Positions 13,233 to 61,140 of a DNA stretch of 64,000 bases are shown here, in pieces. The stretch covers positions 8,618,657 through 8,682,656 of the forward strand of contig CM057162.1 in the NCBI GenBank assembly GCA_029962745.1, written 5' to 3'. The translations under genes were made by a program, and so were the position numbers. The notes under the pieces were generated by a model that made no database searches, was not told the origin of the DNA, and saw only the letters and a program-made list of their open reading frames with translations. How positions within the stretch are numbered: position 1 is the stretch's first letter; each line of letters opens with the position of its first letter. The DNA is from Echinometra lucunter. Lineage: Eukaryota; Echinodermata; Echinoidea; Camarodonta; Echinometridae.

Positions 13233-13265
<33 letters not shown>

Positions 13266-14561: not shown

Positions 14562-14595
<34 letters not shown>

Positions 14596-16945: not shown

Positions 16946-16976
<31 letters not shown>

Positions 16977-41866: not shown

Positions 41867-41947
41867 CTTCATCCCTAGTACTTGCGTTATCATCTGCGGT
41901 TGCGTCAATAGTGACGTTGATGGTGTTGTTCTTTTCCTGACTTTCCC
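41867..41947 (-). CDS. Candidate receptor exon: charged tail 3
   Basis: 27 residues (ESQEKNNTINVTIDATADDN, then ASTRDE) between acceptor ACTTTTAAG and donor GTAACG, phase 1-1 like all other exons. The end ADDNAS resembles TDNAS in the terminal exon at 30843-30970, which would follow it. The splice sites are weaker than in the death-fold exons; a chance open stretch cannot be excluded. Confidence 0.45.
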
Positions 41948-42448
41948 CTTAAAAGTATAAGTCGAATACATTATTAACTACAGTAGACATCCACACACTT
42001 CGCTCCAGCAATCTGATTTTTGTTTTTGCATGGCCTTTTATGTAAATCTAATGAATGGAAAGAGTTCTACATATCGAGTCCATCCACTATCATGATAAAA
42101 TTATTTTTTATTAGTAAATGGTAAGGTAGAGAATTAGTAAATATGTGACACTTTTCTCTTGTTTTCTTTCATTTTCTTTTATTTTTTAAAAAAATGCAAT
42201 GCCGGTATATTTTTTCTTCCTTGCTATATTTTTTGTCGCTTTCAAAACACACTGGGACCTATTAAGCCCTTGCTGCTCTCCGGAAGAAACGTACTCTTTC
42301 GGATATCTCACCAATTTATTGCAAAAGTTTCCGGAACTTGACTTTTGAAATATTTAAGAAATATGTTCCGACTCCCTATTTAAAATTTGCAGTTTGAATA
42401 ATAACGTCTTTGGTGAGAGAGTTCTTAAGATTTTAATGAAAAGAAGAT

Positions 42449-42561
42449 TTATTTGTTTTCACCTTCCTCGATAGTTTTGCCTCCGTTTTCTACAGTTTCC
42501 ACGGTAGCGTCTTTTGCTACTGTCTTTAAGTCTGTCTTGTTCTCCTTAACATCCCCTGCGC
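42449..42561 (-). CDS. Receptor exon: charged tail 2b' (downstream copy; internal or terminal)
   Basis: Reads AGDVKENKTDLKTVAKDATV, then ENGGKTIEEGENK and TAA at 42449-42451. Compared with the upstream copy it has small in-frame changes (DATV for DGETV, NGG for NDGG). A GTGAAA donor after 42463 would allow splicing to 41947. An AATAAA overlaps the stop codon, as in the other copy. The in-frame indels between copies argue for selection on the reading frame. Confidence 0.58.
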
Positions 42562-42806
42562 CTGTAAAAAAGGAAAACCCATTCATAATGATCAGTAACA
42601 CAATAAGGTGAATGATCGATTCCGTATAAGGGAAACCCGCAGAGACGTCGTACTTACGAAGAGGCACATAATTATAACCATTATCAGTGTTTACCTTCTT
42701 TATGAATAAACTGCTTTTTATTCCTCGAGGTGCCTTCCTCGTGCCATACATGCCCACCCCTACAACTCCACCTCCCCCATCCTTCAACATTATGTTTTGC
42801 TCTTAC

Positions 42807-42890
42807 CTTCTCTTCCAGTGTTCTCTTGGAGTGTCTTATCTTTTGCGTCTTTTTCCCCAATTTCATTATCCCCTTTATCCTGCTCTGCAC
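42807..42890 (-). CDS. Receptor exon: charged tail 2a' (downstream copy)
   Basis: 28 residues differing from the upstream copy mainly by IGEKD in place of IGGKD. Same acceptor (TTCATGTAG), donor (GTAAGA) and phase. Lies in the second unit of the 1144-bp tandem duplication. Confidence 0.6.
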
Positions 42891-43102
42891 CTACATGAAA
42901 TAGCAAAATAAAGAGACAACAACCGTACCTTATAAGCTTGTTAAATTTATTCAAATATGGTTCAAATATAGCAAATAAACATATATATATTCAAAGGAAG
43001 AAGACCCCTCGCAAAACGTGTGCAGTGCTTCATTTTAGTACACAGTGAAAGAAAATAAATGGAATGAAGCTGACGTAGCTCTCGATCATGCCCTTTTATT
43101 GT

Positions 43103-43245
43103 AATGGCAAGCTTTCGGCCAACATGGCCTTCATCAGGTCTGAACAGATAAGAAACGAACAGGCAAAATAATATACACATAGAAATGATATCAAAATAAT
43201 CTGTTCAGACCTGATGAAGGCCATGTTGGCCGAAAGCTTGCCATT
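43103..43245. mobile_element. Perfect hairpin with 47-bp arms
   Basis: Arms 43103-43149 and 43199-43245 are exact inverted copies (AATGGCAAGCTTTCGGCCAA start). Both contain the CTGATGA-hairpin-GAAA order. It sits at the junction of the two tandem units. Confidence 0.85.
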
Positions 43246-43562
43246 ACTGAAAGAAATGAAAATGGGAGAATAATAATTTTCTTTCGATTTTTTTCTTATT
43301 TTTAAAAAATGCAATACCGGTATATTTTTTCTTCCTTGCCATATCTTTGTCGCTTTCAAAACACACTGGGACCTATTAAGCCCTTGCTGCTCTCCGAAAG
43401 AAACGTACCCTTTCGGATATCTCACCAATTTATTGCAAAAGTTTCCGGAACTTGACTTTTGAAATATTAAGTAATATGTTCCTACTCCCTATTTGAAATT
43501 TGCAGGATGAATAATTACGTCTTCGTGTGAGAGATTTCTTAAGATTTTAATGAAAAGAAGAT

Positions 43563-43681
43563 TTATTTGTTTTCACCTTCCTCGATAGTTTTGCCTCCAT
43601 CGTTTTCTACAGTTTCCACGGTTTCACCGTCCTTTGCTACTGTCTTTAAGTCTGTCTTGTTCTCCTTAACATCCCCTGCGT
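43563..43681 (-). CDS. Receptor exon: charged tail 2b (upstream copy; internal or terminal)
   Basis: After acceptor TTTTTACAG: DVKENKTDLKTVAKDGETV, then VENDGGKTIEE. Two ends are possible. A GTGAAA donor after base 43577 keeps phase 1 and allows splicing onwards; without splicing the frame reads GENK and stops at TAA (43563-43565). The stop overlaps an AATAAA hexamer, so it could serve as an alternative terminal exon. Paired with 43951-44034 and duplicated at 42449-42561. Confidence 0.58.
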
Positions 43682-43950
43682 CTGTAAAAAAGGAAAACAC
43701 ATTCATGATGATCAGTAACACAATAAGCTAAATGATCGATTCCGTATAAGGGAAACCCGCAGGTAACAGTAAAAAAAAAGAAACACAGACGTCATACTAA
43801 CGAAGAGGCACATAATTATAACCATTATCAGTGTTTACCTTCTTTCTGAATAAACAGCTTTTTATTCCTCTAAGTGCCTTTCTCGTGCCATACATGCCCA
43901 CCCCTACAACTCCACCTCCCCCATCCTTCAACATTATGTTTTGCTCTTAC

Positions 43951-44034
43951 CTTCTCTTCCAGTGTTCTCTTGGAGTGTCTTGTCTTTTGCGTCTTTTCCC
44001 CCAATTTCATTATCCCCTTTATCCTGCTCTGCAC
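43951..44034 (-). CDS. Receptor exon: charged tail 2a (duplicated pair, upstream copy)
   Basis: 28 residues of Asp/Glu/Lys-rich sequence (AEQDKGDNEIGGKDAKDK). Acceptor TTTCATGTAG, donor GTAAGA, phase 1-1. Nearly identical to the exon at 42807-42890, 1144 bp away, because a two-exon block is tandemly duplicated. Conservation of frame, splice sites and most residues in both copies supports coding use. Confidence 0.62.
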
Positions 44035-44134
44035 CTACATGAAATAGCAAAATAAAGAGACAACAACTGTACCTCATAAGCTTGTTAAATTTATTCAAAT
44101 ATGGCTCAAATATAACAAACATACATAGATATTG

Positions 44135-44136
<2 letters not shown>

Positions 44137-44176
<40 letters not shown>
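44137..44176. repeat. (TA)n microsatellite
   Basis: AT dinucleotide run in the intron before the tail exon at 43951-44034; absent from the other tandem unit. Confidence 0.95.
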
Positions 44177-44180
<4 letters not shown>

Positions 44181-44414
44181 AAGGAAGATGTCCCCTTGCA
44201 AAACGTGTGCAGTGCTTCATTTTAGTACACAGTGAAAGAAAATAAATGGAATGAAGCTGACGTAGCTCTCGATGTAGACCAGCTGCTGGTCGTTTTAAAC
44301 TGTCACTAATTTGCGAGCATGCGTGCGCGCGCGCTGATGTACGGTATCCCCACGAATTCACTTTGCCCACGAATTCACCTTCCCCGAATTTGGAGTCACC
44401 GAAACCACTGGCCT

Positions 44415-44485
44415 GTCTCTGTGGTCTAGTGGTTAAGGCATTGGCGTTCATAGCAAAAGGTCCGGGTTCGATTCCAGGCGGAGAC
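44415..44485 (+). tRNA. tRNA-like SINE head or tRNA pseudogene
   Basis: A 71-nt stretch with a 7-bp acceptor pair (GTCTCTG with CGGAGAC, one G-U), box A TGGTCTAGTGG and box B GGTTCGATTCC. The anticodon and T stems each have a mismatch. The anticodon loop can be read as TTC (Glu-like, shortened loop) or TCA, so it is unlikely to be a functional tRNA. Followed by non-tRNA sequence to about 44600, typical of a SINE. Confidence 0.5.
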
Positions 44486-44951
44486 ATTTTTTCAGCCTTT
44501 GAAAAAATTTCCAAAATGGTAGGACAGCTCTGGGGAACTTTGATTCATGCTACGCTATTATTCTCTGAATTGCCTCATATATATGAACATATATGAGGGT
44601 AGTCCACATCTAGCAACTTTAAAGAATGAATAGACATACAAATTTCCATGGAGACAGGCGAGACTTAATTTTTCATGGAAAATTGGTAAGGAGACCTTCA
44701 AGGGTAATTTGACATGACATAATCTAACTAATGGCAAATGGAATCTTATCAGCCATGAAATGAAGGTGGTTATTTTTCAATAGAGTATCACAACATCCCC
44801 TTTCCTGGCCCCCCCCCCCCCCCCCCAAAAAAAAAAGAAACGCACTAGAAGTCAGACAAAAAGCGAAGATTCTCTGTTCAACAGAGTTAAACATCTTATT
44901 AAAACATTACATTATGATTCTTAAAAAAATAAATAATGCGGTCTTGTCTAC

Positions 44952-45068
44952 CTTGCTTGTTAGCGGTGGTGACTTCATCAAAAGGCTCCTTAGTGGTCGC
45001 ATCCCCTGTGCCTTTCTCCTGTTTCTGTGCAGCTCTATCTTCTCTGTCTTCTTTACCTCGCCAGGCAC
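44952..45068 (-). CDS. Receptor exon: charged tail 1
   Basis: 39 residues, highly charged and likely disordered (RGKEDREDRAAQKQEKGTG, then KEPFDEVTTANKQ). Acceptor ATGTTGTAG, donor GTAGAC, phase 1-1. It begins the series of short acidic/basic tail exons after the last death fold. No motif recognised. Confidence 0.62.
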
Positions 45069-45158
45069 CTACAACATTAGACACAAGAGCTCAAAAATAT
45101 TAACATAAGAGATGTTGCAGAGTACAAGTAAATATCACACAGTACATCTATCGCGCAT

Positions 45159-45350
45159 AACGCTTCGATATTAGATGTCAGAATGTTAGTACATGAAATA
45201 TATTGGAGAAGGACATTTTAAACTTCAATATTTATCCTACGTTTTACCTGCCGCAACGCTTCGATATTAGATGACAGATTGTTAGTACATGTAATATACT
45301 GGAGAAGGACATTTAAACTTCAATTTTTATCCTAACGATTTACCTGCAGC
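45159..45350. repeat. 96-bp tandem repeat spanning the donor of death-fold exon 7
   Basis: Units 45159-45254 and 45255-45350 share CTTCGATATTAGATG and TTTACCTGC. The second contains the last seven exon bases and the GTAAAT donor; the first carries a donor-like GTAAAA copy. Confidence 0.85.
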
Positions 45351-45592
45351 AATTTCCTGTGCAAAGTCATAAAACCCGGCAGCAAGGAGCTCGTTGCTTA
45401 GTGTTATGGGCTTGTCCATGAATTTGAAGAATTTCTCGTCGCTTGCCCAAGCAGTAATAACATCCTGGCAGTTATGACCCCCTTTGGCCTTCACGCCCAA
45501 AACTTTATTAAGTTCAGACAGTCGCCCCTCCGGGATGGTGTTTGCTAGCAGTTCGGACTGAGGGTTGGTTATCTTTCGCTTCCTATATTTTC
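45344..45592 (-). CDS. Receptor exon: death-fold-like domain 7
   Basis: 83 residues. Basic start (KYRKRKITN), then ELLANTIPEGRLSELNKVLGV (helices 1-2), CQDVITAWASDEKFFKFM with a helix-4 Trp, and SNELLAAGFYDFAQEIAAG for helices 5-6. Acceptor TTTTTTCCAG, donor GTAAAT, phase 1-1. The last bases of the exon and its donor lie in a 96-bp tandem repeat (45159-45350), so a second donor-like copy follows in the intron. Last of the death-fold units; charged tail exons follow. Confidence 0.75.
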
Positions 45593-45987
45593 CTGGAAAA
45601 AAGTCGAAACATAGTATATAGTATACCTATCAATAACAGATTCCATTTGTCATAGCATTATTTGCTCAATTGGAATTTAGTTTTTTGTACTAAATGTTCA
45701 CTTAGAAATACAACTACATACAGTATACGTTTGGCCTGAAAAGATTGCTGCATGAACTTTGTCTAGTCGTATCCATTCTTTGCGATGATCAGAAACGTTT
45801 TTTTATTATTATTATTATTATCATTTATGCTTTATAAATTGTTAAGTTACATTAGATTACAATATTTAAAAATTATCAATTTGACATTGATTATAAGAAA
45901 TAATAAAAACAAAGTGACTAGAAACTTGTATGAAGGTGCATTTGTTTTCAATAAAGATTTGTTTTTCTAAAGTGTAAACAAAAATAC

Positions 45988-46251
45988 CTGATATTATGTC
46001 AAGTGCAAGGGCAAGGTGCTCCTCGTCCATGTTGAACAATGCATCGGCCAAGACCAAGCGCTGGTTGAAGGTTGAAGAACGAACAGTGCCTTTCCATTGA
46101 AGGAGTACGGACTTCTGATGTTCAACGCCATTGGTTTGGTTGTCCTGATTCATCCCTTGGATGTCTTCAGGAACAGAGAGTTGTTGCGCCAGTTGCGCCA
46201 TGTCAACTCGATTTTCGACTTCTACCACATCTCCAAGGCCGATTTCAAATC
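45988..46251 (-). CDS. Receptor exon: death-fold-like domain 6
   Basis: 88 residues with the clearest death-domain pattern in the gene: VDMAQLAQQLSVPEDIQGM (helices 1-3), then KSVLLQWKGTV with the conserved Leu-x-x-Trp of helix 4, then RLVLADALFNMDEEHLALAL (helices 5-6). Acceptor ATATTCTAG, donor GTATTT, phase 1-1. Expected to interact with another death fold. Adaptor identity cannot be read from sequence. Confidence 0.8.
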
Positions 46252-46718
46252 CTAGAATATTTGCCAAAGGAAAACAAAACAACTGTTAATAAAATTTCAT
46301 AATTTCTTGTTAGGCAGTTATGTAATGGATTGTCGATTTAAATTGTCAGTGAATGACAATAGCAGGATAACTACAGGAAACACATTGCTTCAGGTGCACT
46401 CATCGCAACTTCAACGCAGCAAAGTCTTTTCATACCCTCTCTACACATTTTGAATACAAAGTTTCCATAAAGATGCATTTACAAGGCAAATCGGCCTTAA
46501 AATCAGCACGATCAATGGTTTTGCACAGCAAACATCTGCATAAAATATTAACTCTGATTATAATGATACCCAAAAAAGGTAAGTGCAACAGAGAAAGTTG
46601 ACATCCACGATTCAGAATACAGATGAAAGAAGGAGCATGTCATGTCCTTTTTGCTGCATCCGTGATGTTTTTGTTTATGACAGTCCTTATGACATTGCAA
46701 ACTAGGTTCTTGGCTTAC

Positions 46719-46985
46719 CAAAATATATTGCCTTTGCCTCTTCAAGATAACCTGCCTGTTTCAACATTTTGACCATTTCGAATCGGTCATAAGTTTTTAT
46801 GATCCGGACGGTTCCTTGGCCAAGATTGGTACCCCCGAGGTTCGGCTTGTATTGGGTTAGGAGTTGATCGCTTATGCCAAGAGATTCAGCAAATGGGTAG
46901 ACGTCTGACATAATCAGACGAAAAGCTAATTCGATTAGTTCTACGTTGTATATGATCTCTTTTTTTCCCCTAGGAAGGAGACAAG
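46719..46985 (-). CDS. Receptor exon: death-fold-like domain 5
   Basis: 89 residues. YNVELIELAFRLIMSDVYPF followed by AESLGIS fits death-domain helices 1-2 (the L-G-I/L turn is common), then DRFEMVKMLKQAGYLEEAKA fits helices 5-6, where the MLKQAG-x-L-E-x-A-x-x-I pattern is typical. The expected helix-4 Trp is absent, replaced by IKTYDRF. Acceptor CTCTTCCAG, donor GTAAGC, phase 1-1. A second AG (CTTCCTAG) lies 14 bases into the exon and is an alternative but out-of-phase acceptor. Confidence 0.72.
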
Positions 46986-47397
46986 CTGGAAGAGAATGTG
47001 TTACCAGTTAGTTGTATTTCACCCGTCGTTACTAAGAGTACTATATACTATACTTCACCTCTCATTTCAGACAGACGAAAATAACCATATACTAATGATC
47101 ATGTGCTAGTATATAAATGAATATTCTCAAAACATTCTCAAAACAGTCCTCTGAACTTGTCCTCTTACAGTACAAAAGGAGACATTGTGCACTTTTCTTT
47201 CAACCATTTCTAAGACTTTACATGAGTTTTATCACAGATGACATTTTGATTAGTGTTGATAATTTCGGTCTCATTTAATCCTAATATATATCATCCAGGA
47301 CACATGCCCGGGCAACAGTTTGAACTTTTTATTTCCTGCACTAAGCGAAATTGTACTTTCAACCTTTATTCCAACATTATACATAACACTTACTTAT

Positions 47398-47777
47398 TCA
47401 GTAAATTAAAAGTGTTACTCAGTAATCTATGTTAAATAGGTAAATGAAGCTATTTGACGAAATTAATCCCGAGGAACGTGTTAATGGAGAAAATGACGGA
47501 CTACGAAAGACTCACCATACGGAGGATATTTTTTCTCAAGTAACTCTCTCAAAACGTTTCTCGGGGTATGTTTTTGGTCAATTGATTTAAACAAATTAAA
47601 AGTGTTACTCAGTAATCTATGTTAAATAGGTAAATGAAGCTATTTGACGAAATTAATCCCGAGGAACGTGTTAATGGAGAAAATGACGGACTACGAAAGA
47701 CTCACCATACGGAGGATATTTTTTCTCAAGTAACTCTCTCAAAACGTTTCTCGGGATATGTTTTTGGTCAATTGATT
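47398..47777. repeat. 190-bp tandem duplication spanning the donor of death-fold exon 4
   Basis: Units about 47398-47587 and 47588-47777 are almost identical. The right unit includes the last 72 coding bases and donor of the exon at 47706-47975. The left unit is an exon fragment without an acceptor. Confidence 0.88.
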
Positions 47778-47975
47778 TTGTTTGTCTGTCATGTATGGAG
47801 TCTAGCTTTGGTTTGAGCGTATTTATTATCTTGGTTTCGAAGGGAAGTTCTTTCCCGTCTGGTGACTGCTGTCCGGGGACTTCTCCAACTCCGTATCTCT
47901 TACAGAACGCAAGGAGAGTTGCTGGCCCAGCGTAACGACCGATTCGATCAAGTTCGTCTCGCGAAATAGCTGTGA
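47706..47975 (-). CDS. Receptor exon: death-fold-like domain 4
   Basis: 90 residues: helix 1 SRDELDRIGRYAG, then ATLLAFCKRYGVGEVPG, then a long amphipathic stretch FETKIINTLKPKLDSI and a final RNVLRELLEKKYPP. It lacks an obvious helix-4 Trp, so it is the least certain of the seven; a CARD-like or divergent death fold is possible. Acceptor ATTTTTACAG, donor GTGAGT, phase 1-1. Its last 72 coding bases with the donor and adjacent intron are tandemly duplicated just downstream (copy at 47398-47587). Confidence 0.65.
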
Positions 47976-48180
47976 CTGTAAAAATATATATATATAAAAC
48001 AAGGATATTGGTCATAAAGGCTTTAACTGCTTCGGATTCTGAAAGAATTTATTTTTCCACCTGGATGGAAAGTAGCAAAATCTAGATTATAATCGATAAT
48101 AGGCCACACTAGACCATTAAACTTCTAAAGTTTAAAGGATTAGATACAATGTACATTAAAAATGTACTTCACTACATTGT

Positions 48181-48590
48181 GATACAGTAAAGGTGTGTTC
48201 AGATATGAGGAGACAATGTCGCGCCTTATCTCAACACCATTTGCGGCGACAAAAAATCTCGCTGAGGAAGCACACTTTTTTTTTTACTGCCTGCTGGCTG
48301 CACCATTCAAATTCCAAAAAAATGAACGCAAAATATGATGTCATGAATTTGTCTGCCCAAGTTTTGAAGAGAACTTTTTCAAAACTTGCGCGGACAATCT
48401 CATCATGATGACAACATATTTCGCGCTCATTTTTAGGAGCTTAATTGGTTCGATTTTTAGCAGCCGGGCAGCAAAGAAGAAAAATGTGTCCTGTAACTTG
48501 GCGACATTTTTTGTCGTCTCGATACCCCATACACCAAATCTACTCTGTGGAGAGCTCACCGGAGATAAATTTTATACATTTACTGTATGT
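48181..48590. mobile_element. Foldback MITE (ATACAGTAAA termini)
   Basis: Inverted arms meet near 48375 (CAAGTTTTGAAGAG against TTCAAAACTTG). Outer ends ATACAGTAAA and TTTACTGTAT. Lies in the intron between linker 2 and death-fold exon 4. Confidence 0.75.
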
Positions 48591-48906
48591 ATGGATATGC
48601 ATATATCTTGGTGCCATTTTAGTCGGAAAGAATTTATGTCCACTAAAATAAAATTTAAAAAAAATTATTATACTGTGTCAATACTGTAGTTGAAATGGCA
48701 GGTTCCATATGTACAGTATATTTATGAATAAAGAAAACTGGTTGAAGCAATGCATTATGGGAAGCTTTTTTTTCTGCATCCTCCGTTTTTTGTCATGACT
48801 TCACAATGTGGTATCTAAACAGAAACAAAACTAAAGATGGGGAGTGCACATTCTATTTTCATTAGTAGTGGGAAAAACGAAAAGAATAAAAGAAATTTCT
48901 ACATAC

Positions 48907-49023
48907 CAAAGCTAACTTGAGATTCAGCCACATTATGTGTCATGTCTGTGGGCCGAGTCTGTTCCATGTCTTCATGGACTTCCTGTAACACATGTTGTGA
49001 AGGAGTATAATCGCCCAATTTAC
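48907..49023 (-). CDS. Receptor exon: polar linker 2
   Basis: A 39-residue linker (KLGDYTPSQHVLQEVHEDM, then TDMTHNVAESQVSF). The acceptor chosen is CCTTCCTTTGAG at 49024: it follows a good pyrimidine tract and keeps the phase-1 frame open. The nearer GTTACAG acceptor would give an immediate stop in the required frame and is rejected. Donor GTATGT. Symmetric, so potentially skippable. Low complexity, rich in Glu, Asp and Thr. Confidence 0.6.
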
Positions 49024-49239
49024 CTCAAAGGAAGGTGAAATCAAACAGGAGAGAAATTCACATATTACTCTCAAATGACATCCATTATTTTGATGCAAAT
49101 ATTGTTTATTTCACCCACAATTATTTTGTTGTAGTATTATGCTTAATTACTTTGATATTAATGATGCTGTACATATTTATCAAAATTGTACAGCGCATAG
49201 AGATTTTTTCAAGTCAGTATGCGTTATATAAACATTCTT

Positions 49240-49310
49240 ATCATAGCTATTATCATTATCATTATTATTATCATTATTATTATTGTTATTATTATTATTA
49301 TTATCATGTA
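49240..49310. repeat. ATT/ATC trinucleotide run
   Basis: Interspersed TATCATTATT repeats within an intron. Confidence 0.85.
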
Positions 49311-50157
49311 GAAATTATAATTCCATATCGAGCGCTGTGATACATGGTTACTCATTGCAAAAGTGATATATAAATGTTAAATATTGTATTTTTTGATAAA
49401 GGTGATACTTCACCTACCCGTCTACTGATTCGGTATTGTCGAGCATAAAGAACAGTTATAATTATGACACTTTTCCTCCAATTTATGCTACACAAAATCC
49501 ATAATTCATTGGGATGAATTGTAACGAGGGTCGGTATTCTAAAAATTGTTTTATCTTTTATCTTATTTTAATTGTCATGACAATAAGAAATTAGGGTATG
49601 CCATTGGCTTAATACACCGAGTACTTCAAACCAATCACAAGTTCGCCTTAAGACTTTGTTATGACAATCAAAAATAGCTAAGATAAGATAAAAGATTTTA
49701 GAAATCCAGAATGCTGGCTTTAACAAAGAAGTAGTTAGATGTATGATGTATAACAGCAAGTTTTTCTATTTTGATGAATCAAGTATTACATGTAAAAGCA
49801 GAATCAATAAAAATATTGAGTTTTCACATCGCCTCCTTATTTCATGATCACGGTGTATGCCCATGTGAATTGAATTGAATTGTACTGAATATGTTTATTG
49901 TCCATAAAGGAATTTTTTTCTTTTACATCGGATAAGTTTGAAATACAATGCACTTAGAAATTTGCAGGGTCATACAGAGAAATTTAGATTAATGTCTAAA
50001 CATGTGGAACCAATGTTAAGAAAAAAATCGAAGCAAGCTCAGCATATTTGCACTTCATTACAGTAATTAAACACACACGCATGTAAAGCTCGTCTGGACG
50101 AGACCTTGTGGTCCCATACAAGGGTGGATTAAAGTGTGATGTTATGAAGGTACTCAC

Positions 50158-50271
50158 TCTTTTCTGGTGTTCTGGCTTTTCGATTTTGCTTTTCATTCGT
50201 GCATGTGATAGAGACTGACGGCGGCGCGTTGGATGACGAAACTTTACTCTGATCTTCACTTATGAAAATAT
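50158..50271 (-). CDS. Receptor exon: polar linker 1
   Basis: A 38-residue linker: Ser/Pro-rich start (SSSNAPPSVSITC) and basic end (EKQNRKARTPEK), with no predicted fold. Acceptor TTCCACAG, donor GTGAGT, phase 1-1, so it can be skipped without a frameshift. It separates death-fold units 3 and 4 together with the next exon. No kinase-site or adaptor motif is assigned with confidence. Confidence 0.65.
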
Positions 50272-50565
50272 CTGTGGAAGAATTTCCCATTTTTATGACA
50301 CACATTATCAACGTTACTTGCTTCCTGTTTAACAATCCAAAAGGTTAAAAGGGCAGGTATGTGCTGTGGGTGATTTCTAAGAGAAAGTAGATCCTAATGA
50401 AAATCGGAGATAAAGTCCTGCAGATATGCATAACCGAGATGATGTTGCATATCAAAGTAAAAATAGCAATACATATTCTAAGATGAATTCTGTGATTAAG
50501 GTGAAATATATAAACAGAGCTTGGATGATTTTGTTCCATAATAAGGCAGGGATTTTCCCCTAAAC

Positions 50566-50745
50566 AGAGGTATCGTGATCAAGAGGATACGTCGGCAGAC
50601 TGTAAATCACAAGGTTGACGGTTAGAGTCCCGAGGTGGCACAAATGTCTTTTGGCAAGAAATTTATTTACAGTTGCCACTCTCACGCAGGTGTAGAAAAT
50701 GGGAACATGGTAGGAATAATTTCCTTGAAAGGTTAGAGTGACTCA
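50566..50745 (+). mobile_element. tRNA-derived SINE
   Basis: Head GTATCGTGATCAAGAGGATA with box B GGTTAGAGTCC, then a body with TTGGCAAGAAATTT, CACGCAGGTGTAGAAAATGG and ACATGGTAGGAAT, a pattern common to animal tRNA-SINE tails. Lies between linker 1 and death-fold exon 3. Confidence 0.7.
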
Positions 50746-50894
50746 ATGAAACCATTCTAAAACCGGGGTAAACCGTGTAAACAGTGGGGCGCCAGGAGTG
50801 TCAGTTCTGACAGAAATGTGCACTATACCATGTATGCAAGAACTCACTATTATTACTAAAATTACATAGGAAAATCCATCAGAAAGGTCTATAC

Positions 50895-51161
50895 CTGCTA
50901 TGTCCTGACGGTTACACTGTTCTGCTGTTGTTCTCAGCTTGCACCTGATTTCGTAGTTACTGCACCTTTGATCCAACACCCACGCTTTGAGCATGATATC
51001 TGTCCGGAACATCACAGTGAGGTCTTCTTCATTCTTGGCATCAATATCTCGCTCGTGAAGATTTAAGGTGTTTCCAAGTCTCTGGCAGTGTATTTTGGTA
51101 ATACTGAGGGCAAACTGCTTCAGGACTTCGTCTTTCAGTTCGCTCTTGTACTCATCTCGAA
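50895..51161 (-). CDS. Receptor exon: death-fold-like domain 3
   Basis: 89 residues. Pattern: a first helix DEVLKQFALSITKIHC, then LGNTLNLHERDIDA (the usual region of helix 2/3), then MLKAWVLDQRCS with the conserved Trp-type position, and a final helix around CKLRTTAEQCNRQDIAG. The AW-V-D motif after a hydrophobic run is one of the better death-domain signatures in this array. Acceptor ATTGTAG, donor GTATAG, phase 1-1. Cys-rich for an intracellular domain (five Cys). No catalytic motif is visible, so a scaffold role is inferred. Confidence 0.75.
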
Positions 51162-51739
51162 CTACAATTTGATGAATATGATTCAATTTAATTTCTATCA
51201 AATTCCTTTCTTTCCATTCTTAGCTATTCATACGCCTCGAAATAGAATACGATTATACTTCGCCTTGAAAGTTTCTGGTTTAAACTATGGAGAAAATGTG
51301 ACCCCGAAATAGTACTAATATAATACAGAAATTCGAAAGTGTGGCGGAGTATATTTGTTTAATATTTTGCATCAAATGTTTGTATCATAGAATCAAATTT
51401 ACAATGGCTGACTTTTTATTCCCTCATGCCAGTTATTGTGGTCTTGTGCTCATATTCTTAATTTCAGATTTATGTTTTATCGAAAATTCCATGGCACTAA
51501 TACAGATAACTTCAAAGCGATCCGAAATCGAGAAACGAAGTAGCAGTGACACCGTGAGAGTTGCCCATCGTGCGCACTCGAGCTCTCGTATGCCCGCTAA
51601 AATTTTAGCGTATAGATTTTGCGCATTGTGACGTGATTTCACAAATAGTGTAGTATTTGGAAAATGTCTTCATAAAAAGTGACATCACTTTCAAAATGGT
51701 ACTGCATGCATGCAATATTCTGGGATAGAAAAAAAAAAT

Positions 51740-52040
51740 AAAAATGCATAAATCCCAGGGATGGGGGAATATATCACCCCCACTTTTTCGGGAGGGGGAG
51801 ATGGCGTGTACAAATATCCCCACACACTTTTTAATTAGTCAGTTTAAAAATCTTCTGTTAATTTGTCAAAAACGACCATCATATTTTGAAGTCCATATTT
51901 GAAAATGCAAATTAAAACCAGAAAAAACGGTTATCTTTGGCTCGCACGCTTCACTCGCTCGCAAAATAAAAATCAAATGTGTGTAAGGGGTGTGGGTGAG
52001 GGTGTGTATTCATACTTATTCCCCCTGTCCCGTTTAATAG
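51740..52040 (-). repeat. G-run-rich dispersed repeat (minus copy)
   Basis: Complement of the 1970-2460 family: GGGATGGGGGAATATATCAC, GGCTCGCACGCTTCACTCGC. Intronic. Confidence 0.6.
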
Positions 52041-52442
52041 GGAGGAAGTTTGTCCCTTTCTGTTGTCGCCACTGTTAGACAGTTAATAAACAGGACTTTT
52101 ATCTGCATGTGCCGTGCATGTAGAGACAATGTGAGAAACTTTAGATGTTAGAATTAACCTGCACTTTTACACGACTAGAAAGCTGATCGCCGCTCACCGC
52201 AAATCGTATTGTATTTCAGGGGGGGAGCAAAAATCTCGCCGCACCACCCCCCCCCCCCCCCTCATGAAGCACGTATCTGCCCCATTTTTCATAGATGATA
52301 GACCGAATGTTTAAAAACTGAGAAACATTGCATCTAATTAGCGTAGCGACCGGGTAAGAAAATTGTTGATATTTTACTAATGATAATAATAATATTAATA
52401 ATAGTAATATTAATAATAACAATGGTAATAATTATAATGATG

Positions 52443-52494
<52 letters not shown>

Positions 52495-53252
52495 TAATTA
52501 ATCAGATTCATAAAGCGTCAAATCAACTCCGTAGGAGTGTTCTAGGGGCAGTGTAAGAGAAAGAAATGAAAGGAGAGAGTAGAAATACAAGAAAAACAAA
52601 AAAGAAAATCAATGAGAAGCATTAAATAAGTAGGTTTTTAGACAGTTTTCTAATCCGGAGAACAGTTTTTTTAGTCCGGGGAACTGCAGTTCCTAATAAC
52701 TAAAGACCGACGTGGGCTAAAGCTCGTTCCCCTGGGTTTTAGCGATTGAATGGAAGCTCTGTTAACTTGATGAAGACGTCCCCCCCCCCAAAAAAAAAAA
52801 AAATCACTCATATATCTAAACAACATACAAATATGTATAATAACTAATATCATGAATATATATAATATGACATGTGGGCAGGTAGAAGGGGGGATGGGGG
52901 ATAAAATTTTAAAGAGAATCATAGAGAGAAGGGTACTCTACATCATGAATGTCTTGTAAAATCTATACCAATTCAAGAAGGAAATTCGGCAATGTAAACT
53001 AAAATTAACCGCCATAACAGGTCATTTTGATCGGTTCAATGATATAACAAGGTAGCGATAAATATGGCATCAGTGAATGAAGGCAAACCATGTACTGACA
53101 GCATTAGGCCTGCTATCAATATTTATAGAGGAGGGCATTCTCTACTTGCCTCTTGCCTCTGTCTGTATCTGTGCTTCACTTTATATTTCTTTTTCTGGAA
53201 ATAAATTTCAAAACAAATTTTACATCACTTTTTATAGCATGAATCAACTTAC
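52041..53252. other. Intron with simple repeats
   Basis: C run at 52243-52262, (ATA)n at 52378-52500, C/A runs at 52780-52803. No exon recognised between death-fold units 2 and 3 in this stretch. Confidence 0.6.
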
Positions 53253-53690
53253 TCTCATAAAATGTTTTGGAGAGCTGAAGATAAACTCCGCCATCGCTGT
53301 TGCCTGTTGCCTTCCCGGCTTTCTCAAGGGCACGACAGAGTTTGATCATCTGGTTTGATGGCAATTGTTTTTTGTGTTCACCTTTGATATCTAGCTTTTC
53401 TGATTTTGTATGAAATGTTACTGTCTCGTCACTGTCTTCATCTTCATCTTGGTACGCTTTCTCGACTGACTGTGCTTGCCAATTCTTCATCAGATTGAGG
53501 TCCTCCCAAATTTTTTTACACCTGGATAAAGCTAAGAATTGGTTGTTTTTTGCAACCTTATCAGTGTTTTTGAATGGAAATTTTAACGATCTTAATATGG
53601 GCTTCACTGTCTCCCTGCAGCCCTTGACGTGCCAGCATATGTGTTCCAAGTCTTGATCGGAAACTTCATCATTTTCGTTTGCAAGGAACG
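53253..53690 (-). CDS. Receptor exon: death-fold-like domain 2 with acidic insertion
   Basis: At 146 residues this is the longest cytoplasmic exon. The first half looks like a death domain (DQDLEHICWHV, TVKPILRSLKF, then LALSRCKKIWEDLNLMKNW). A strongly acidic segment follows (YQDEDEDSDETV), and afterwards LPSNQMIKLCRALEKAGK resembles a helix 5/6 segment, so the fold may carry an insertion of roughly 35 residues. An alternative is one death fold plus an unrelated helical tail. Acceptor TTTCTTTCAG, donor GTAAGT, phase 1-1, frame intact. The exon sits immediately 3' of the transposon-filled intron. Confidence 0.72.
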
Positions 53691-53756
53691 CTGAAAGAAA
53701 TCATTAAAAACACCTGAAAATGATTAATAATCATCTTTCGTGCTTTATGTCAAGTA

Positions 53757-56700
53757 CAGCGCGTCCCACAAAAATGTACCTCTGATTGAGCGCTAAATTA
53801 ATTCTAAAATATGATATGAGTCCCAATTCGATCTTCATATCTTGAAAGCCTATTTAATCCTGTAAATTATGAGAAAATTTCATCGGTCTCACATCAGTGG
53901 TTTGAACAGAGAGTCTGTTATGTAAAAGCAATGCATTTCAGTCCATTCCAAGTTTGCAGTGCTCCAATTTTCTGCACGGTCTTTATGTTTTCAATCAACT
54001 GTAGTGTTTTTGCCTTCTCTGCTCCCTTTCATTTTAAAGTTTTGTTTAACAGAGAACATTTTGTGGACTTTCGGACTTTCATCATCAGTGGTGTCCAAGA
54101 GTGAAGCACATCTACCAACTCTCATAGTGCAAGATCTTGGATAGGAAGGAGGACCATCCAGGTTAAAGTTTGCTGTCTCCTTCCCAGGCAGCCACTCTGG
54201 GAGTATGTTTCTTGTCTGTTATCATTGACTTTCTGTTGTATATCTTCATGTATTTTGTATTGTTTTGAAATGGCCAAATAAGGAATAATGATAATTGTAA
54301 TGATAATGATGATAATAATGATAATAATAATAATAACAACAATAGTAATAATAATAGTAATAATAATAATAACAACAATAGTAATAATAATAATAATAAT
54401 AATAATGATGATAATAATAATAATAATAATATGTAAAGCATGAGCAAGTGTACAGCCTCCTTGTATGCCACTCAGCATGCATTTCAAAGGTACCAAACTC
54501 TTGATACTTCAGGTAGTTCCTCATGGTGGTGGTTGATCGAGGTATCGCCTTTGAAATGCACGTTGAGTGGTAAGCAGGCTGTGCGGTTGTTCCTTCTTTA
54601 AGACAAGCAAAGCCCTTTGACGGGCAGTAAGCTGTTGACCAACCATATTGAAGTCAAAGACAAATTAACTAAAAGGTGACCAAATTTTCCACCAACATAA
54701 ATTAACTATGAAAGAAAGACAAGACATGAAAGGAACAAAAATCTATTCATTTCATTCTTACTTTAATTTCTGAATTTAAATTTCTCATTGAGCTGGACAC
54801 CTGTTCATTTCTTAAATATTTATTTCCTTGCTTAACACTGCTGAAGCTCTTACATGAATCTTAAAACCTTGTTTTAATTTATCCGGTAGCATTTTGTGTA
54901 AATTTCATAAGTTATGAATTCGCAGAGCTCAGAACACCTATTCATATTTCTTTTTCTTTATGGTCTCAACAAATTTTATGATTATTATTTATTGTTATTA
55001 TTATTATTATTATTAGTTTTATTATTATTACTATAATTATCAGTGGCGCAGACAGGTTCTTACACCTTACACACATTTCAATTTTTATCTTTTTATAAAA
55101 AATTATCACTTTTCTGGTTTTCAATCGCATTTTCAAATAGAAATTCTATAATATGATGAGCGAGCCAAGCGAGCGAGCCAAAAATAACCACTCTTCTGGT
55201 TTTCAGTCGCAATTTCAAATAGAAATTCTAAAATAGGATGAGTGAGCCAAAAATAAGCGCTTTTCTGGTTTAAATCGCATTTTCAAATAGAAATTCTAAC
55301 ATATGATGGTTGTTTATGACAGCTTATTAAAAAATTCATTAAAGATTAATTTAAATATCATTTCTTCCTTTAAAAATGGGGAGATATTTGTACACGCCAT
55401 CCCCCCTCTCAAAAAAGTGGGGGATATATCCCCCATTCCCCCTGGGATTTACATCAACGATGCACAGACATAAATAGACGATATACGCACCGTGATAAAC
55501 AAATATAGAATATGGACTGACACACTTTATTGCATATTTGCATCACACTATTTATCTCTTTTTTCATTTTGTTGTTACACCACTTCAGAAAAACTATGAC
55601 AGCGACAAAATCACCCAAAAGTAATATAAATAACTACAGAAATCAGAATAACGATAGAAATCGTCATTTCAGTCACATTAACGATGATGATGATGATGAT
55701 AACTATTATTATTATCATAGGCATAATAATAATGATACATTACCAATTATTATCATTATTATTATTATTATTGTTGTTATTGTTATGATAATAATAATCA
55801 TTATCATTATTGCTGTTCCTATCATTTCTAAACATGTTAACTCAGTTTAATTGTAAGCAAACATCCTTCCCTAATACCTGGGGGGATGATTGTACATGTC
55901 ATCCCCCCCCCCACCTCACAAAGTGGGGGATGAATACCCCTCATCCCCCCCCCCCCCCCCCCCCCGCTGTCTACGCCCCTGATTATTATTAGTAGTAGTA
56001 GTAGTAGTAGTAGTATCATTATTATCATTATTATTATCATTATTATTATCATTATTATTAATATTATTATTATCACAAGTATTATAATTATTATCAGTAT
56101 TATTATTATTATCATTATCATTATTATCATTATCATTATCATTATTATCATTATTATTATTCTTTATTTGGCCATTTCAAAACAATACAAAATACATGAA
56201 GATATACAACAGAAAGTCAATGATAACAGACAAGAAACATACTCCCAGAGGGCTTTTACTAAACACTCGGGTCGCGTCGCGGCGCGGCGCGCTGGAAAAC
56301 ACACGGGTCGCGGCTCGCTGAGCCAATTTTTTTTTATATAGTGTCTTCAAATCGGCCTACACGATGGAAAAAAATTTATTGAAAATTATCGATTTCTTTA
56401 CAACCCTTTTTCAATGTTGTCTTCAAGGCGGGTGCGAGAGGAAATCTACTATATGGAAAAGTTGAAAGTTGCCCTTCATTAACTGATGGAAAAATAAGAA
56501 GACATGAATTAGGATTGACAATACGAAAGAAAGAATACGAGGTAGATAAACTGAACTTTAGAGAAACTGTAAGCCTGCAAGGAAGGGAATAGTGGAAACG
56601 AGGAAGAATGGAACGAGTGCGAAGATGAACTGTGGGAAATTAATGTTAGAGAGGAATACAAAACAATGAAAGAAATGAATAGTACGGAATGATAGGAGTA

Positions 56701-57175
56701 AAAGTGTAAAATTGAAAGACTATTGGCCAGGTTAACAGTGATAAAGTTTTTTTTTTTTTTTGCTAAATCACATGATAGAAAAAGAGAAGGTAAATAAAGG
56801 GATAGAATAAATTGTAGAATTTTGTTGTTTTTGTTGGACACCACTGATGATGAAAGTCTAAACATCTACAAAATGTTCTCTGTTAAACATAACTTTAAAA
56901 TGAAAGGGAGCAGAGAAGGCAAAAACACTACAGTTGATTGAAAACATAAAGACTGTGCAGAAAATTGGAGCACTACAAACTTGGAATGGGCTGAAATGCA
57001 CAGTACATGATAAACTCTCTGTTCAAAACCAATGATGCGAGACCAATGAAATTTTATTCATAAGTTACAGGATTGAATGGGCTTTCACGATATGAAGATC
57101 AAATTCTGACTCATATTATATTTTAGAATTAATCTAGCGCTCAATCAGAGGGACAATTTTTAGGGGGACGCGCTG
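53757..57175. mobile_element. Long-TIR element, 3.4 kb, TA-flanked
   Basis: Ends CAGCGCGTCCC and GGGACGCGCTG, each next to TA (53755-53756, 57176-57177). Arms of about 500 bp pair along 53757-54280 and 56165-57175, apart from an insertion at about 56245-56820 in the right arm. The interior is ATT/AAT simple repeat (54280-54432, 54978-55030, 55680-55810, 55980-56165) and G-run repeat copies (55060-55470, 55860-55985). No transposase, so non-autonomous; TA target and ends suggest Tc1/mariner-type mobilisation. It sits in the intron between death-fold exons 1 and 2. Confidence 0.82.
56245..56820. repeat. Insertion in the right arm of the long-TIR element
   Basis: Absent from the left arm. Begins with a CpG-dense patch (GGGTCGCGTCGCGGCGCGGC) in otherwise AT-rich DNA and continues as A/G-rich sequence. 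Origin not identified. Confidence 0.5.
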
Positions 57176-57673
57176 TACATCAAACCATTCCAGCCCTACA
57201 CTGTGGGGGAAAGGAAAAGGGAGGCAATTTACCCCCCCCCCCCCCCCCAAAAAAAAAAAAAAAAAAAAATGTCCTTACTTTTTTATAGGAAACTTTACAA
57301 ATTACACGAAAGTGTGCACCGGAACCTTCAATTTCAATTCTAAAAACGCAAAAGCGCCCTTGTATCTGCTCGGTCGCTTCTCTCCCTATAGCTGTGTGTT
57401 TCTTCAAACTTTCTTTACTTGCCTTTCCCTCCCACGGAATTTTTGCTTACGTCCCCGCATTAAACTCTCCATCAATTTATATACTTGCATTCATGATAGA
57501 CAGTAGAAATTCCTTTATTCCACAGAAGTTTGTATTCCGTTGAATTTTCATTTTATTTCTCCTTAGGTGGCATTGTAGATACATGTACATTCATGCAAAC
57601 GTCTATTTAATTGGTCTTGTGACCAATATCTTAAAGGAAAGTGATGTTTTGTTTTTTTTTTACAAAGAAATAC

Positions 57674-57907
57674 CTTCCATTATGTGAAGTTCCTTTTCAA
57701 GATTATGTTTCTCCATGGCGCAATACAGTAGATTGGCATAGCCAGAGCTATTCCCCTTCCACTCGCATAACTTTTGATGGAAATCCTCTTTCAGTGTTTC
57801 CTCAGTGGAATCTATGGATTCTCCCATCAGCTCACTTACAATGAGACTCAAAGAACCAATCTCTAACATTTCGACAAGTTTCTTCAACTCATAATCAGAT
57901 ATCTTCC
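57674..57907 (-). CDS. Receptor exon: death-fold-like domain 1
   Basis: A 78-residue exon placed directly after the membrane anchor. The spacing of hydrophobics and a Trp in the fourth-helix position (KLCEWKGN, followed by GYANLLYCAMEKHNL and EKELHIME) matches the death-domain pattern of helix 4 to helix 6; EDFHQKL precedes the Trp. Acceptor TTTATGCAG, donor GTATTT, phase 1-1. Death-fold domains act by homotypic packing to build signalling scaffolds. Which subfamily this is (death, DED or CARD) cannot be decided by eye. The following intron is about 4 kb and holds a 3.4-kb inverted-repeat element. Confidence 0.72.
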
Positions 57908-58395
57908 CTGCATAAAAAGAACCATTATAACGTCATTGTTGTATGCACCAACTTTGAACATAGGACACGCAAACATGGAGATGGCTAAATGTTATTTTTG
58001 TTCAGTCATGGATTTTTTTTTTTTTTTGAGGGGGGAGGGACACCCAACTCGCCGCTCAACTAACAAGACTAAGAAACCCTGGTAGCCAACCTTTAGCAAG
58101 ATAAATACACAAACTAAAGCCCCCCCCCCCATTTTTTTCAATTGTCGCAAACAATTAAAATGCGTTTAATAATAGTGTCATCATTTATTTTACAGCTTTC
58201 AAAGAATATACCTTATCAAATTAGCACTTATGCTACTACTGTTAATGTGGTGGGATATCCCCTTCCCACATCCTCTCCCTCTCCCTCTCCCCCCCTCCCC
58301 GGTCGCTTCGCTCCCTCGTCTTAGCCCCCCCCCCCCCCCCCCCCCCTGTTGAAAATTCCTGGTTACGCCAAAGATATCACACTAACTATATTTAC
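57908..58395. other. Intron with homopolymer runs
   Basis: Holds long C runs (58119, 58325-58346) and CTCCCT repeats. No exon seen. Confidence 0.6.
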
Positions 58396-58515
58396 CTTTG
58401 TCCATAAGCTGATACCGCCTTAAGTTGCGGTATCCGTCCCTCTTCTTTTTCATCCGCATAATGTATAGGCCTACAAGGACCACTAAAATGACAACGATGA
58501 CACTGATGAGTATGA
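58396..58515 (-). CDS. Receptor exon: transmembrane helix and stop-transfer
   Basis: A 40-residue exon after acceptor ACTACCAG. With the hydrophobic end of the preceding exon it makes a helix of about 25 residues (VILISVIVVILVVLVGLYIM is its main part), followed by a strongly basic cytoplasmic anchor with RMKKKR and RNLRRY. This orientation puts the Ig domains outside and the rest inside, as in a type I receptor. It ends MDK with a GTAAAT donor in phase 1. A longer open frame upstream of the acceptor is also hydrophobic, but its polypyrimidine tract is better explained as intron. Confidence 0.83.
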
Positions 58516-59070
58516 CTGGTAGTGGGTGCAGAAAAAGATAGAGTAACGCTAATGATATCATCATGCTTAAAACTGTGTGATAGGTCACGCTACGAACTAA
58601 ACACGCCAAATGAAATACATTTGCATTAATCAGTTGATATCCTAGTCCGGGCATTTAAATGACATTTTATTCAACCCAACAATATCGCTTAAAATACTAA
58701 CAATTTACACCTACCATACTTTAATACACGTTACCATGTAAGTGGAAATCGGTAGTGCTTTCAAGTGATATTTTTGGTTGTATGAATAAACATGTAATGT
58801 TTACAACGAATAATTCCCTTTGGTTTATTATTTGATGGACAATTTTGGCAACTGATATTTTAGGCATTTATTCTAGGCATCTTGAAAAGAATATCATGGT
58901 GGATCTACATCACCTATCCATTACATCTTCTAAAATTTAAAGATAATCCACATAGAAAATTCTGCGCTTTTCTTCTTCTTATTATCTCTTTTTTATCTTC
59001 TCCTTCTCCAGTGTTCTCTGTTTTCTTTTTCCACTTCGTATTTTTCATTTTCTTGTTCTTGTCAACTTAC

Positions 59071-59493
59071 CAGCAATAAAAATTGCCTTAATGCCATCCG
59101 GATCAGGAAGGGACCTCGTGGCGTTTGTAGTCATAAAAGCTTCAGGGGTTGTACCGACCATAGCTGGATTTACAGTGACGCTAGTTTCTTCTTCTATGCT
59201 TGTACTGGCGGACAGTGTGGCGACACAAACATAGGGATCGTCGCTCGGTGTTGCAGTAATAGTCGTTATGACCTCTTCTGTGACGCCATCCATACTGGGT
59301 GATCTCCGGGGTGCTTGGTGAGGAACAGGCGCACCCCCATGGGTCCAGAAGAGTGATACCAAGCCACTGGTAGCATCCATCGTTCTGCATGTTAGGTTGG
59401 TGGAGTCCACTCCTGTTTCTAGTGTCAGGATGCACGGTTCTAACGCACCTGTTGAGCAAGTGTCTATCTTTGGGAATGGTCTTTGGGGTGGAA
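59071..59493 (-). CDS. Receptor exon: second Ig domain plus juxtamembrane stalk
   Basis: About 141 residues. The Ig core shows Cys in NLTCRT, Trp in LFWTHGG 14 residues later and the second Cys in DPYVCVATL. NLT and NAT are N-glycosylation sequons. After the domain comes a Thr/Ser/Pro-rich stalk (PAMVGTTPEAF) and then the hydrophobic start of the membrane helix (IKAIFIA), so the helix is split between this exon and the next. Acceptor TTCTGCAG, donor GTAAGT, phase 1 at both ends; the upstream T plus TT gives an uninterrupted Phe codon at the junction with the previous exon. The next splice keeps the hydrophobic run in frame, which supports the join. Confidence 0.85.
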
Positions 59494-60175
59494 CTGCAGA
59501 ACGTATTACAGAAAAACAAACGAAAAAAAATGTGTTGATATGCAATAAAAGATGTCGTGTAATTTGAATGAAATTCGAAATTGATAGATTTGGTTTCACT
59601 TTTTCCAGAAGAACAGAACTATTCTACCAAATAATGAGTAAATAAAACCTAAGTAAAACTGAAGCGCTTACACAAGGTTCAACCGATTTTCATCATAGAT
59701 TGATGAGTTTTAGTTTTTTGTAATGCAATGTGATATGCATCTCCTTGTCATGTCTGTTTGAGTTCAATTTAAGTGAACATTTTTAAACTGATTCATTTCG
59801 TCTTAACCACATTGTATTGGAAGAAATTTACTTTGAATTTACCCTCAAGAACCTGTTTAATGGTTTTTTTAAGGAATCAAATTGAGCGAGTGAGTTGACC
59901 GATAAATAATTCAGATGTTTCACATGCTCACAATATTTACTGAAAAAGGTTGCTACTTCTACCATCTGTGAATACATGAAGGATTTTTTTTTTTTTTTTT
60001 TTTTTTTTAGGGCGCATTTGGGATTAAACCCCATGTGAACCGGAACTTATTTCGCGAGCAGGGTGCATATTCAAATTCATTTGCAGGTTTAAAAGTTTTG
60101 CTATTTTCATGGATTATGATATTTAAAACAATATAGCTGGAACTAAGAATAAATTGAATTCATGATAATTCTTAC

Positions 60176-60523
60176 AAAACACACTGATGTCGGTAAAGTT
60201 GTGTATCAGTATCCCTTTGTAGCTTGAAACTCTGCAGATGTATCTTCCCTGTTCGGCTATGCTGACTTCTTTGATGATCAATGAGAAATCTTCATCCATC
60301 TCCATGATCTGACAGGGCCTTTCACCTTCACATAAACCAGTCACCGGGTCTCCTGGAATCCATGAGACCAGGTTGGGTGCTGTTCTTGGGTCATCTCCTT
60401 TCTTCCAGTAGACAGCTAATGGTGTCCCACGGAACCGACATTTTAGAACCACACTGTCTCCTACTCGGACCGTTTTGTCTGGACTGGTGTAAACAACATC
60501 ATCTGGAACTTCGCCAGAAACTC
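60176..60523 (-). CDS. Receptor exon: Ig domain (membrane-distal of the two seen)
   Basis: Encodes about 116 residues forming one immunoglobulin domain. The canonical Cys pair lies in VVLKCRF and GRYICRV, and the core Trp in AVYWKK is 11 residues after the first Cys. The GRYIC element is the usual strand-F motif (D-x-G-x-Y-x-C type). A second close Cys pair (CEGERPC) may add a loop disulphide, and NFT near the end is an N-glycosylation sequon. The exon opens after an AACAG acceptor with two bases completing a split codon, and ends at a GTAAGA donor after one base of the next codon, so it is a symmetric 1-1 exon as is typical for Ig domains. It is the most 5' exon in the window; upstream exons and the signal peptide are not visible. 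Ligand unknown. Confidence 0.85.
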
Positions 60524-60641
60524 CTGTTCATGACAATTACGATTTCCATTGGTATTTCTCTATCAAAACATGAGTGTTAATTAATTTCATAACTAAGTCG
60601 CCTTGAGTCAACTACTTTAGATTTCCATGTAGACCTGTTTT

Positions 60642-60961
60642 ACACACGCAAAGAAAAAAAGGTGCAATTTTGCACCTTTCAAATGCAACACTGGGAGCTT
60701 CTATTTTTGGTGCAACTTTGCACATTAATAATGTACCTCTAAGGGTGCAGTTAGCTACATTTTGCACCTAAAAGATGCAGAGTTGTACCCTTTTAGAGAA
60801 GGTGCAAATTAGGACCTTTTTGTACGCAACATTTCTGCACCCTACAAAATGCAAAGTTGCAACTTTGAGGATGCAAACGGGCATTTTCGGGTGCAAACAA
60901 GGACAAGAGGGTGCATTTTTGCACCTTTTTTATGTTGGGTGCAAACTTGCACCTTTTTTTC

Positions 60962-60970
<9 letters not shown>
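60642..60970. mobile_element. GGTGCA-rich MITE
   Basis: Starts ACACACGCAAAGAAAAAAAG and ends with the near-complement CTTTTTTTCTTAGTGTGTGT. The interior has more than ten GGTGCAA/TTGCACC motifs in both orientations. Related to 20935-21150 and to the stub at 3010-3080. Confidence 0.75.
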
Positions 60971-60996
<26 letters not shown>

Positions 60997-61140
60997 AACT
61001 CATTACTATCAAACAGCACTAATTTATGCATAAATGAGGAAATTTTGCATGTGTGTGTGTGTGTATGTAACTCATTACTATCAAACAGTACTGATTTATG
61101 CATAAATGAGGAAATAGACCACACTGTACTAAATTTAGTA
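60965..61140. repeat. (GT)n runs with a 74-bp duplication
   Basis: Two GT runs, each followed by ATGTAACTCATTACTATCAA and CATAAATGAGGAAAT, so the run plus its flank is tandemly duplicated. Confidence 0.85.

Follow-up and report, generated by a model that had tools for sequence, protein, structure and literature searches.

Does the genome of the sea urchin Echinometra lucunter encode a membrane receptor whose cytoplasmic part is itself a chain of death-fold modules? The question is raised by a minus-strand gene in a stretch of 64,000 nucleotides (C12:8618657-8682656, referred to below as the window), in which an initial annotation had recognized an apparently undescribed receptor with two immunoglobulin (Ig) domains, one membrane helix and about seven tandem death-fold units. 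The genome searched comprises 743 Mb in 2266 contigs. Our favored reading, held with restrained confidence, is that this gene is one of a multigene family of echinoids that encodes type I membrane receptors, in which two Ig domains and a transmembrane (TM) helix are followed by an ordered array of units (D1-D7), most of them death folds, and by a tail.

Structure of the predicted gene

The gene model consists of 19 joined exons, i.e. Ig1, Ig2, TM, D1-D3, two linkers (L1 and L2), D4-D7 and the tail (T1-T7), and encodes 1241 residues, the first exon not being included (Table 1). All 19 exons have an AG acceptor, and all but the last have a GT donor and are in phase 1 at both ends. The Ig1, Ig2, TM and D1-D7 exons each have a length divisible by 3 and are in frame when joined, as had been claimed. 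The D array spans positions 57907 to 45344, with 78 to 146 codons per exon, and the model extends beyond the part annotated initially, through the tail to a TGA stop codon at 41473. The domain exons were placed by similarity; in the choice of L2 and the tail exons phase fit played a part, so their phase constitutes no independent evidence. In a tblastn comparison of 17 relatives with the 19 modelled exons, nine exons were matched clearly (Ig1, Ig2, D1-D7) and two marginally (L1, T7), and the other eight (TM, L2 and T1-T6) were not matched.

Ig1 matches the Pfam I-set family (37.1 bits, cut-off 23.7). No Pfam Ig match was obtained for Ig2 of the window gene; Ig2 of the relative P0010 does match Pfam Ig (residues 156-222). 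The predicted ectodomain is assigned to the immunoglobulin superfamily, the first of the two Ig domains by Pfam cut-offs and the second via relatives only. The single membrane helix was readily confirmed, with a mean hydropathy of 3.77 across 19 residues. Type I receptors are characterized by a signal peptide and one membrane helix: the window gene shows the helix, and a signal-peptide-like exon was found in a neighboring copy of the gene (see below) but not for the window copy.

Two local duplications were observed within the gene. Tail exons T2-T3 are tandemly duplicated as T4-T5 (window 42162-42988 and 43277-44132, 91% identity), and the 3' end of the D4 exon has a partial duplicate immediately downstream (window 47517-47588).

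The inverted neighboring copy and the origin of Ig1

Inspection of 304 kb around the window revealed a second copy on the left, on the plus strand, which is readable from an exon for a putative signal peptide (8574579-8574657), via Ig1-B (in two exons), Ig2, TM, D1-D7 and the tail, to a stop codon. It repeats the exon phases and splice signals of the window gene, and its tail also has T1, T2, T3, T5, T6 and part of T7. The ratio of nonsynonymous to synonymous substitution rates (dN/dS) between the two copies is 0.33 for the D array (656 codons), 0.51 for Ig2 and 1.3 for the tail, the last value being based on six changes only. The window Ig1, which is of another subtype (A), gave ratios of 0.11 and 0.14 versus two paralogues; its identity to the Ig1-A exon that stands alone at 8698461 is 97%, and the three changes between the two all alter an amino acid. 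The predicted D array and Ig1-A (versus the two paralogues) are, by these values, under purifying selection. Taken together with the tblastn matches and the phases and splice signals repeated in the inverted copy, the D array ratio indicates that conservation of the predicted exons exceeds chance.

The window gene and the left copy lie in inverted repeats (window 24169-59861, gapped; pieces 87-98% identical). Window 60145-63349 recurs in inverted orientation in a stretch on the right. Since the two flanks are repeats of different places, a breakpoint is placed between Ig1 and Ig2. Ig1 of subtype A is joined to Ig2 across this rearrangement breakpoint, while Ig1-B is carried by each of the three other B-type loci in which an Ig1 is visible (8549589, 8580593 and, from the same partial match, C2130). 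Moreover, the region upstream of the window copy, as far as the gap at 66081, yielded no family-like signal-peptide exon. These points weigh against our reading, at least for this copy, and favor a rather unlikely but serious alternative: the family is real and the window copy is non-working, an inverted duplication or misassembly having split Ig1 from Ig2 and produced a hybrid without a signal peptide. Such an explanation has to accommodate the fact that all modelled exons are open and have splice signals, the low dN/dS of the D array, and the lack of any run of N between window positions 3581 and 66081. It also has to accommodate P0014 of Strongylocentrotus purpuratus, which likewise has an A-type ectodomain (Ig1-A and another Ig2) ahead of B-like D1-D3 (a gene model that may itself be in error). 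With its subtype A Ig1 on a subtype B body, the window copy has the appearance of a natural hybrid and is less likely to be broken or misassembled.

The large inverted repeat as a whole comprises approximately window 1-59861 and, on the left, C12:8582850-8619180. Its arms are about 36 kb long (87-98% identity by piece, as above), and its 24-kb spacer holds an assembly gap (run of N, window 3081-3580). It may represent a true duplication or an assembly effect.

A clustered family in the genome of E. lucunter

Searches of the whole genome gave 141 matches to the Ig pair, 63 to the D array and 28 to A-type D5. Twenty-seven of the 61 best Ig places are located on C12 at 8.5-9.6 Mb and eight on C7. 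An Ig exon on the same strand was present within 30 kb upstream of 25 of the 53 distant D places, compared with 4 of 53 when the strands were flipped; within 60 kb these numbers were 30 and 8, respectively. None of 39 other Death exons tested had such an Ig exon within 60 kb. The A-type genes to the right of the window contain three D1-like and two D2-like exons, followed by D3, D5 and D6. The predicted window gene belongs to a large echinoid family, clustered in the genome, with at least two subtypes. The term undescribed receptor was appropriate in that the literature searched contained no name or description for the layout Ig-Ig-TM-tandem death folds, but this is not a single novel receptor.

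The size of the family also bears on an unlikely alternative, namely a receptor for adhesion or one linked to the cytoskeleton, in which the Ig pair would bind neighboring cells and the death folds would serve as a plain protein-binding scaffold, as in ankyrins, with no death or immune output. A large clustered expansion with exchanged ectodomains is, however, more usual in recognition families.

Relatives in other echinoids

Protein searches yielded 24 relatives from S. purpuratus, Lytechinus variegatus, L. pictus and Diadema antillarum; those scored were the candidates sharing most words with the query, and a wider occurrence is possible. The named relatives are uncharacterised echinoid proteins (P0020 has no name). 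The closest protein with full coverage is P0001 of S. purpuratus (50% identity), followed by Lytechinus proteins. Ten of the 24 (P0001, P0010, P0014, P0016, P0017, P0019 and P0021-P0024), originating from Strongylocentrotus, two Lytechinus species and Diadema, combine a Pfam Ig match, a membrane helix and three or more D units in one predicted protein. The complete set of Ig, TM and D1-D7 is present in P0001 and P0010 (B-type) and in P0022 and P0023 (A-type). Mapping of D profiles on the relatives revealed that the order of the D units is constant throughout the B type; two D7-like units are found in P0022 and P0023, and alternating extra D1 and D2 units in P0021. The layout proposed initially is supported by this search for the same order in other echinoids, as well as by profile and fold comparison (see below).

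The array shares 40-50% identity with LOC105439723 (S. purpuratus), LOC121419542 (L. variegatus) and LOC129267038 (L. pictus), and LOC105437304 (S. purpuratus), which has a second D7-like unit, shows 38% identity over part of the A-type query. All four have the D order of the window gene, and Ig and TM are present in LOC105439723, LOC105437304 and LOC121419542.

Other relatives point in the opposite direction: (i) P0002, P0005 and P0008 begin at D1 and have neither Ig nor TM, (ii) in P0006, which has Ig, no helix exceeds the threshold and (iii) P0004, P0007, P0011, P0012, P0013, P0015, P0018 and P0020 have no Ig. Many of these relatives are partial gene models. The first two groups would fit a division of the locus into separate genes or isoforms, one for a membrane Ig protein and the other for a soluble death-fold scaffold. 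We consider this quite improbable, given that the ten proteins listed above, from four species, are predicted as single proteins, and that in both E. lucunter copies the TM exon is directly followed, in phase, by D1.

Between TM and D1, P0014 carries five near-identical repeats starting with GIYMDATVV, which are absent from the window gene.

Similarity of the D units to death folds

None of the separate D exons matches Pfam Death. In the joined array D6 alone passes, and narrowly (23.1 bits, cut-off 22.6), so that Pfam, named in the initial annotation as a check on the exons, recovered Ig1 and, after joining, D6. Pfam Death was found at E 1 or better in 6 of 16 aligned relatives, and in P0024 both Ig and Death (at D3, 23.8 bits) exceed the Pfam cut-offs within one protein.

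An independent death-domain profile was built from 28 Death-matching exons located elsewhere in the genome (out of 85 matches). Using hhalign, values of 92-96% were obtained for D3, D5 and D6 (Table 1). Their reversed controls gave 0.6-1.2% (D3 0.6%, D5 1.2%), and 60 column shuffles of each scored up to 18.7, versus 37-44 for the real sequences. D2 (27.7%) and D1 (13.4%) both exceeded their own shuffles; D4 and D7 (1.4%) did not. When rows of a diverged paralogue type were added, the values rose to 57% for D1, 67% for D2 and 53% for D7, the raised D1 and D2 matches covering 34 and 33 columns, respectively (approximately the second half of the domain). The paralogue rows of D4 alone gave 39%, and D4 of the A type and that of the B type match each other at 11% only. 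The D units are mutually dissimilar (at most 8.4% in 21 pairwise comparisons). Judging from the paralogue rows, where D2 is compact, the long insertion of B-type D2 follows the Trp helix and precedes the last two helices.

The tryptophan motifs noticed earlier were located in D1 (KLCEWK), D3 (MLKAWV), D6 (LLQWKG) and D7 (VITAWA). For the predicted folds of D1 and D7, death folds rank first, with middling Z; the D1 fold is structurally near the death domains of TNFR1, Fas and DR3, and the DED of vFLIP and CARD of RIG-I appear in the structural rows obtained for D1 and D2. By profile similarity the array is assigned to the death-fold superfamily, the predicted units showing strong (D3, D5, D6), middling and partial-length (D1, D2, D7) or weak (D4) similarity to death-domain profiles, and D4 is the doubtful one among the seven units claimed initially. 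That several D units form another helical bundle or repeat, the array not being a death-fold one, is the least probable of the alternatives: the unmatched separate exons, the weak D4 and the helical-repeat rows in the structure comparison of the D6 part of the P0005 model speak for it, but the D3, D5 and D6 values with their low controls and the fold ranking of D7 and D1 argue against it.

The D2 insertions of Lytechinus (P0005, P0006, P0008-P0012) contain a Cys-rich stretch (ICCCHK or similar), possibly a lipidation site, which is absent from the window insertion. With at least 85 Pfam Death matches, the death-domain set of the E. lucunter genome is large apart from the Ig/D-array family.

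Comparison with known systems

The UNC5 netrin receptors have Ig domains and thrombospondin repeats outside, one membrane helix, and ZU5/UPA and a single death domain inside. Outer Ig domains, one helix and an inner death domain are shared with the window gene, but the latter has about seven dissimilar tandem units instead of one. Pfam scans of the separate exons and of the joined array (up to E 10) detected no thrombospondin repeat and no ZU5 or UPA domain, the families listed at E 1 for 16 relatives include neither thrombospondin nor ZU5, and membership of UNC5 was rejected. The TNFR death receptors (Fas, TNFR1, DR3) are type I proteins with outer cysteine-rich repeats and one death domain inside. 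They resemble the window gene as membrane receptors with a cytoplasmic death domain, and also in the fold predicted for D1. No TNFR cysteine-rich repeat was detected in Pfam scans of the exons, the array and the 16 relatives, and the gene was not placed in this group either. Tandem death folds occur in the cytosol, i.e. the tandem DED of vFLIP and caspase-8 and the tandem CARD of RIG-I; these share the tandem arrangement, but they comprise two units and lack Ig domains and a membrane helix.

A sponge gene with Ig domains and one listed CARD, altered after microbial signals, is similar, as far as the available description goes, in that a single gene encodes both Ig and a death-fold domain (PMC6208332). 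The sea cucumber AjNLRC4 is described as a membrane receptor with an outer Ig domain that binds microbes, a NACHT domain and two transmembrane structures (PMC8699970). Judged by this description, it shares with the window gene the character of an echinoderm membrane receptor with outer Ig; it differs in its NACHT domain and two transmembrane structures, and the passages concerned describe no death-fold array (PMC8699970). We regard the family analyzed here as a variant of the death-fold receptors, not as an entirely new kind, and as being of greater interest than the single gene.

Proposed mode of action and significance

We infer from the sequence a sensor and scaffold function for the window gene. 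The two outward Ig domains would bind a ligand, and the single helix would connect them across the membrane with the cytoplasmic array of dissimilar D1-D7 modules and the charged tail. Ligand binding could gather receptors into clusters at the membrane, and the non-identical death-fold surfaces may then nucleate assemblies with cytosolic adaptors, kinases or caspases (of the FADD, MyD88/IRAK or caspase-8 type). In this manner a few receptors might elicit a switch-like response, probably immune or related to cell death. Several partners are suggested, since the D units are too unlike for a simple repeat. The expansion of the family suggests an immune role, as does the sea cucumber Ig-domain receptor described in the passages cited above, and the family may sense microbes or damage.

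Each module is encoded by a separate phase 1-1 exon, so its swap, duplication or loss would keep the frame. This modularity would account for the existence of two subtypes, for the additional D1, D2 and D7 units in relatives and for the hybrid Ig1 found in the window. It is plausible, though short of probable, that the Ig and D exons have been mixed by tandem and inverted duplication, and that exon shuffling produces new receptor/signalosome combinations, each receptor having its own multivalent platform, within a large unnamed family of immune type.

Known death receptors have one death fold each and require adaptors for multivalent assembly. If our reading is true, a receptor with some seven dissimilar death folds arranged in cis would constitute a built-in, possibly multi-adaptor signaling platform and would permit a direct test of whether multivalency in cis can replace adaptor polymerisation. 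Sea urchins possess expanded TLR, NLR and SRCR families; a large, clustered, exon-interchangeable family would be a candidate for a further diversified invertebrate recognition system beside them. It may have stayed unnamed because single-sequence Pfam searches miss most D units.

Positions of the features and minor observations

Table 1. Predicted exons of the receptor gene (window coordinates)
Feature	Position	Strand	Support
Ig1 exon, subtype A Ig domain	60176..60523	-	Pfam I-set; 78% identity to S. purpuratus P0014
Ig2 exon, subtype B Ig domain	59071..59493	-	43-55% identity to Ig2 of relatives, most B-type rows
Membrane helix and juxtamembrane exon (TM)	58396..58515	-	Hydropathy; same exon in left copy
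D1 death-fold unit	57674..57907	-	
D2 death-fold unit, long insertion ahead of last helices	53253..53690	-	
D3 death-fold unit	50895..51161	-	hhalign 95.7%; Pfam Death at D3 of P0024
Linker exon L1	50158..50271	-	Splice signals, phase; marginal tblastn, E 0.04-0.5
Linker exon L2 (acceptor AAG), the least certain of the exons	48907..48978	-	Splice signals and phase only
D4, helical; death-fold similarity weak	47706..47975	-	hhalign 1.8%; 18% with added paralogues
D5 death-fold unit	46719..46985	-	hhalign 95.3%
D6 death-fold unit	45988..46251	-	Pfam Death in joined array; hhalign 93.7%
D7 death-fold unit	45344..45592	-	
Seven charged tail exons T1-T7, ending with TGA	41473..45068	-	Splice signals, phase
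T1	45068-44952	-	
T2	44034-43951	-	
T3	43681-43577	-	
T4	42890-42807	-	
T5	42561-42463	-	
T6	41947-41867	-	
T7	41561-41473	-	

A tail intron contains, on the plus strand (window 44414-44487), a 74-base tRNA-like sequence, identified by ARAGORN as tRNA-SeC (anticodon TCA), which is perhaps a tRNA-derived repeat. The spacer of the large inverted repeat holds a 5.3-kb array of the trinucleotide GTA (window 13001-18306; about 1770 copies, 73% matches), and the strong GC skew at 12-20 kb is caused by this array.

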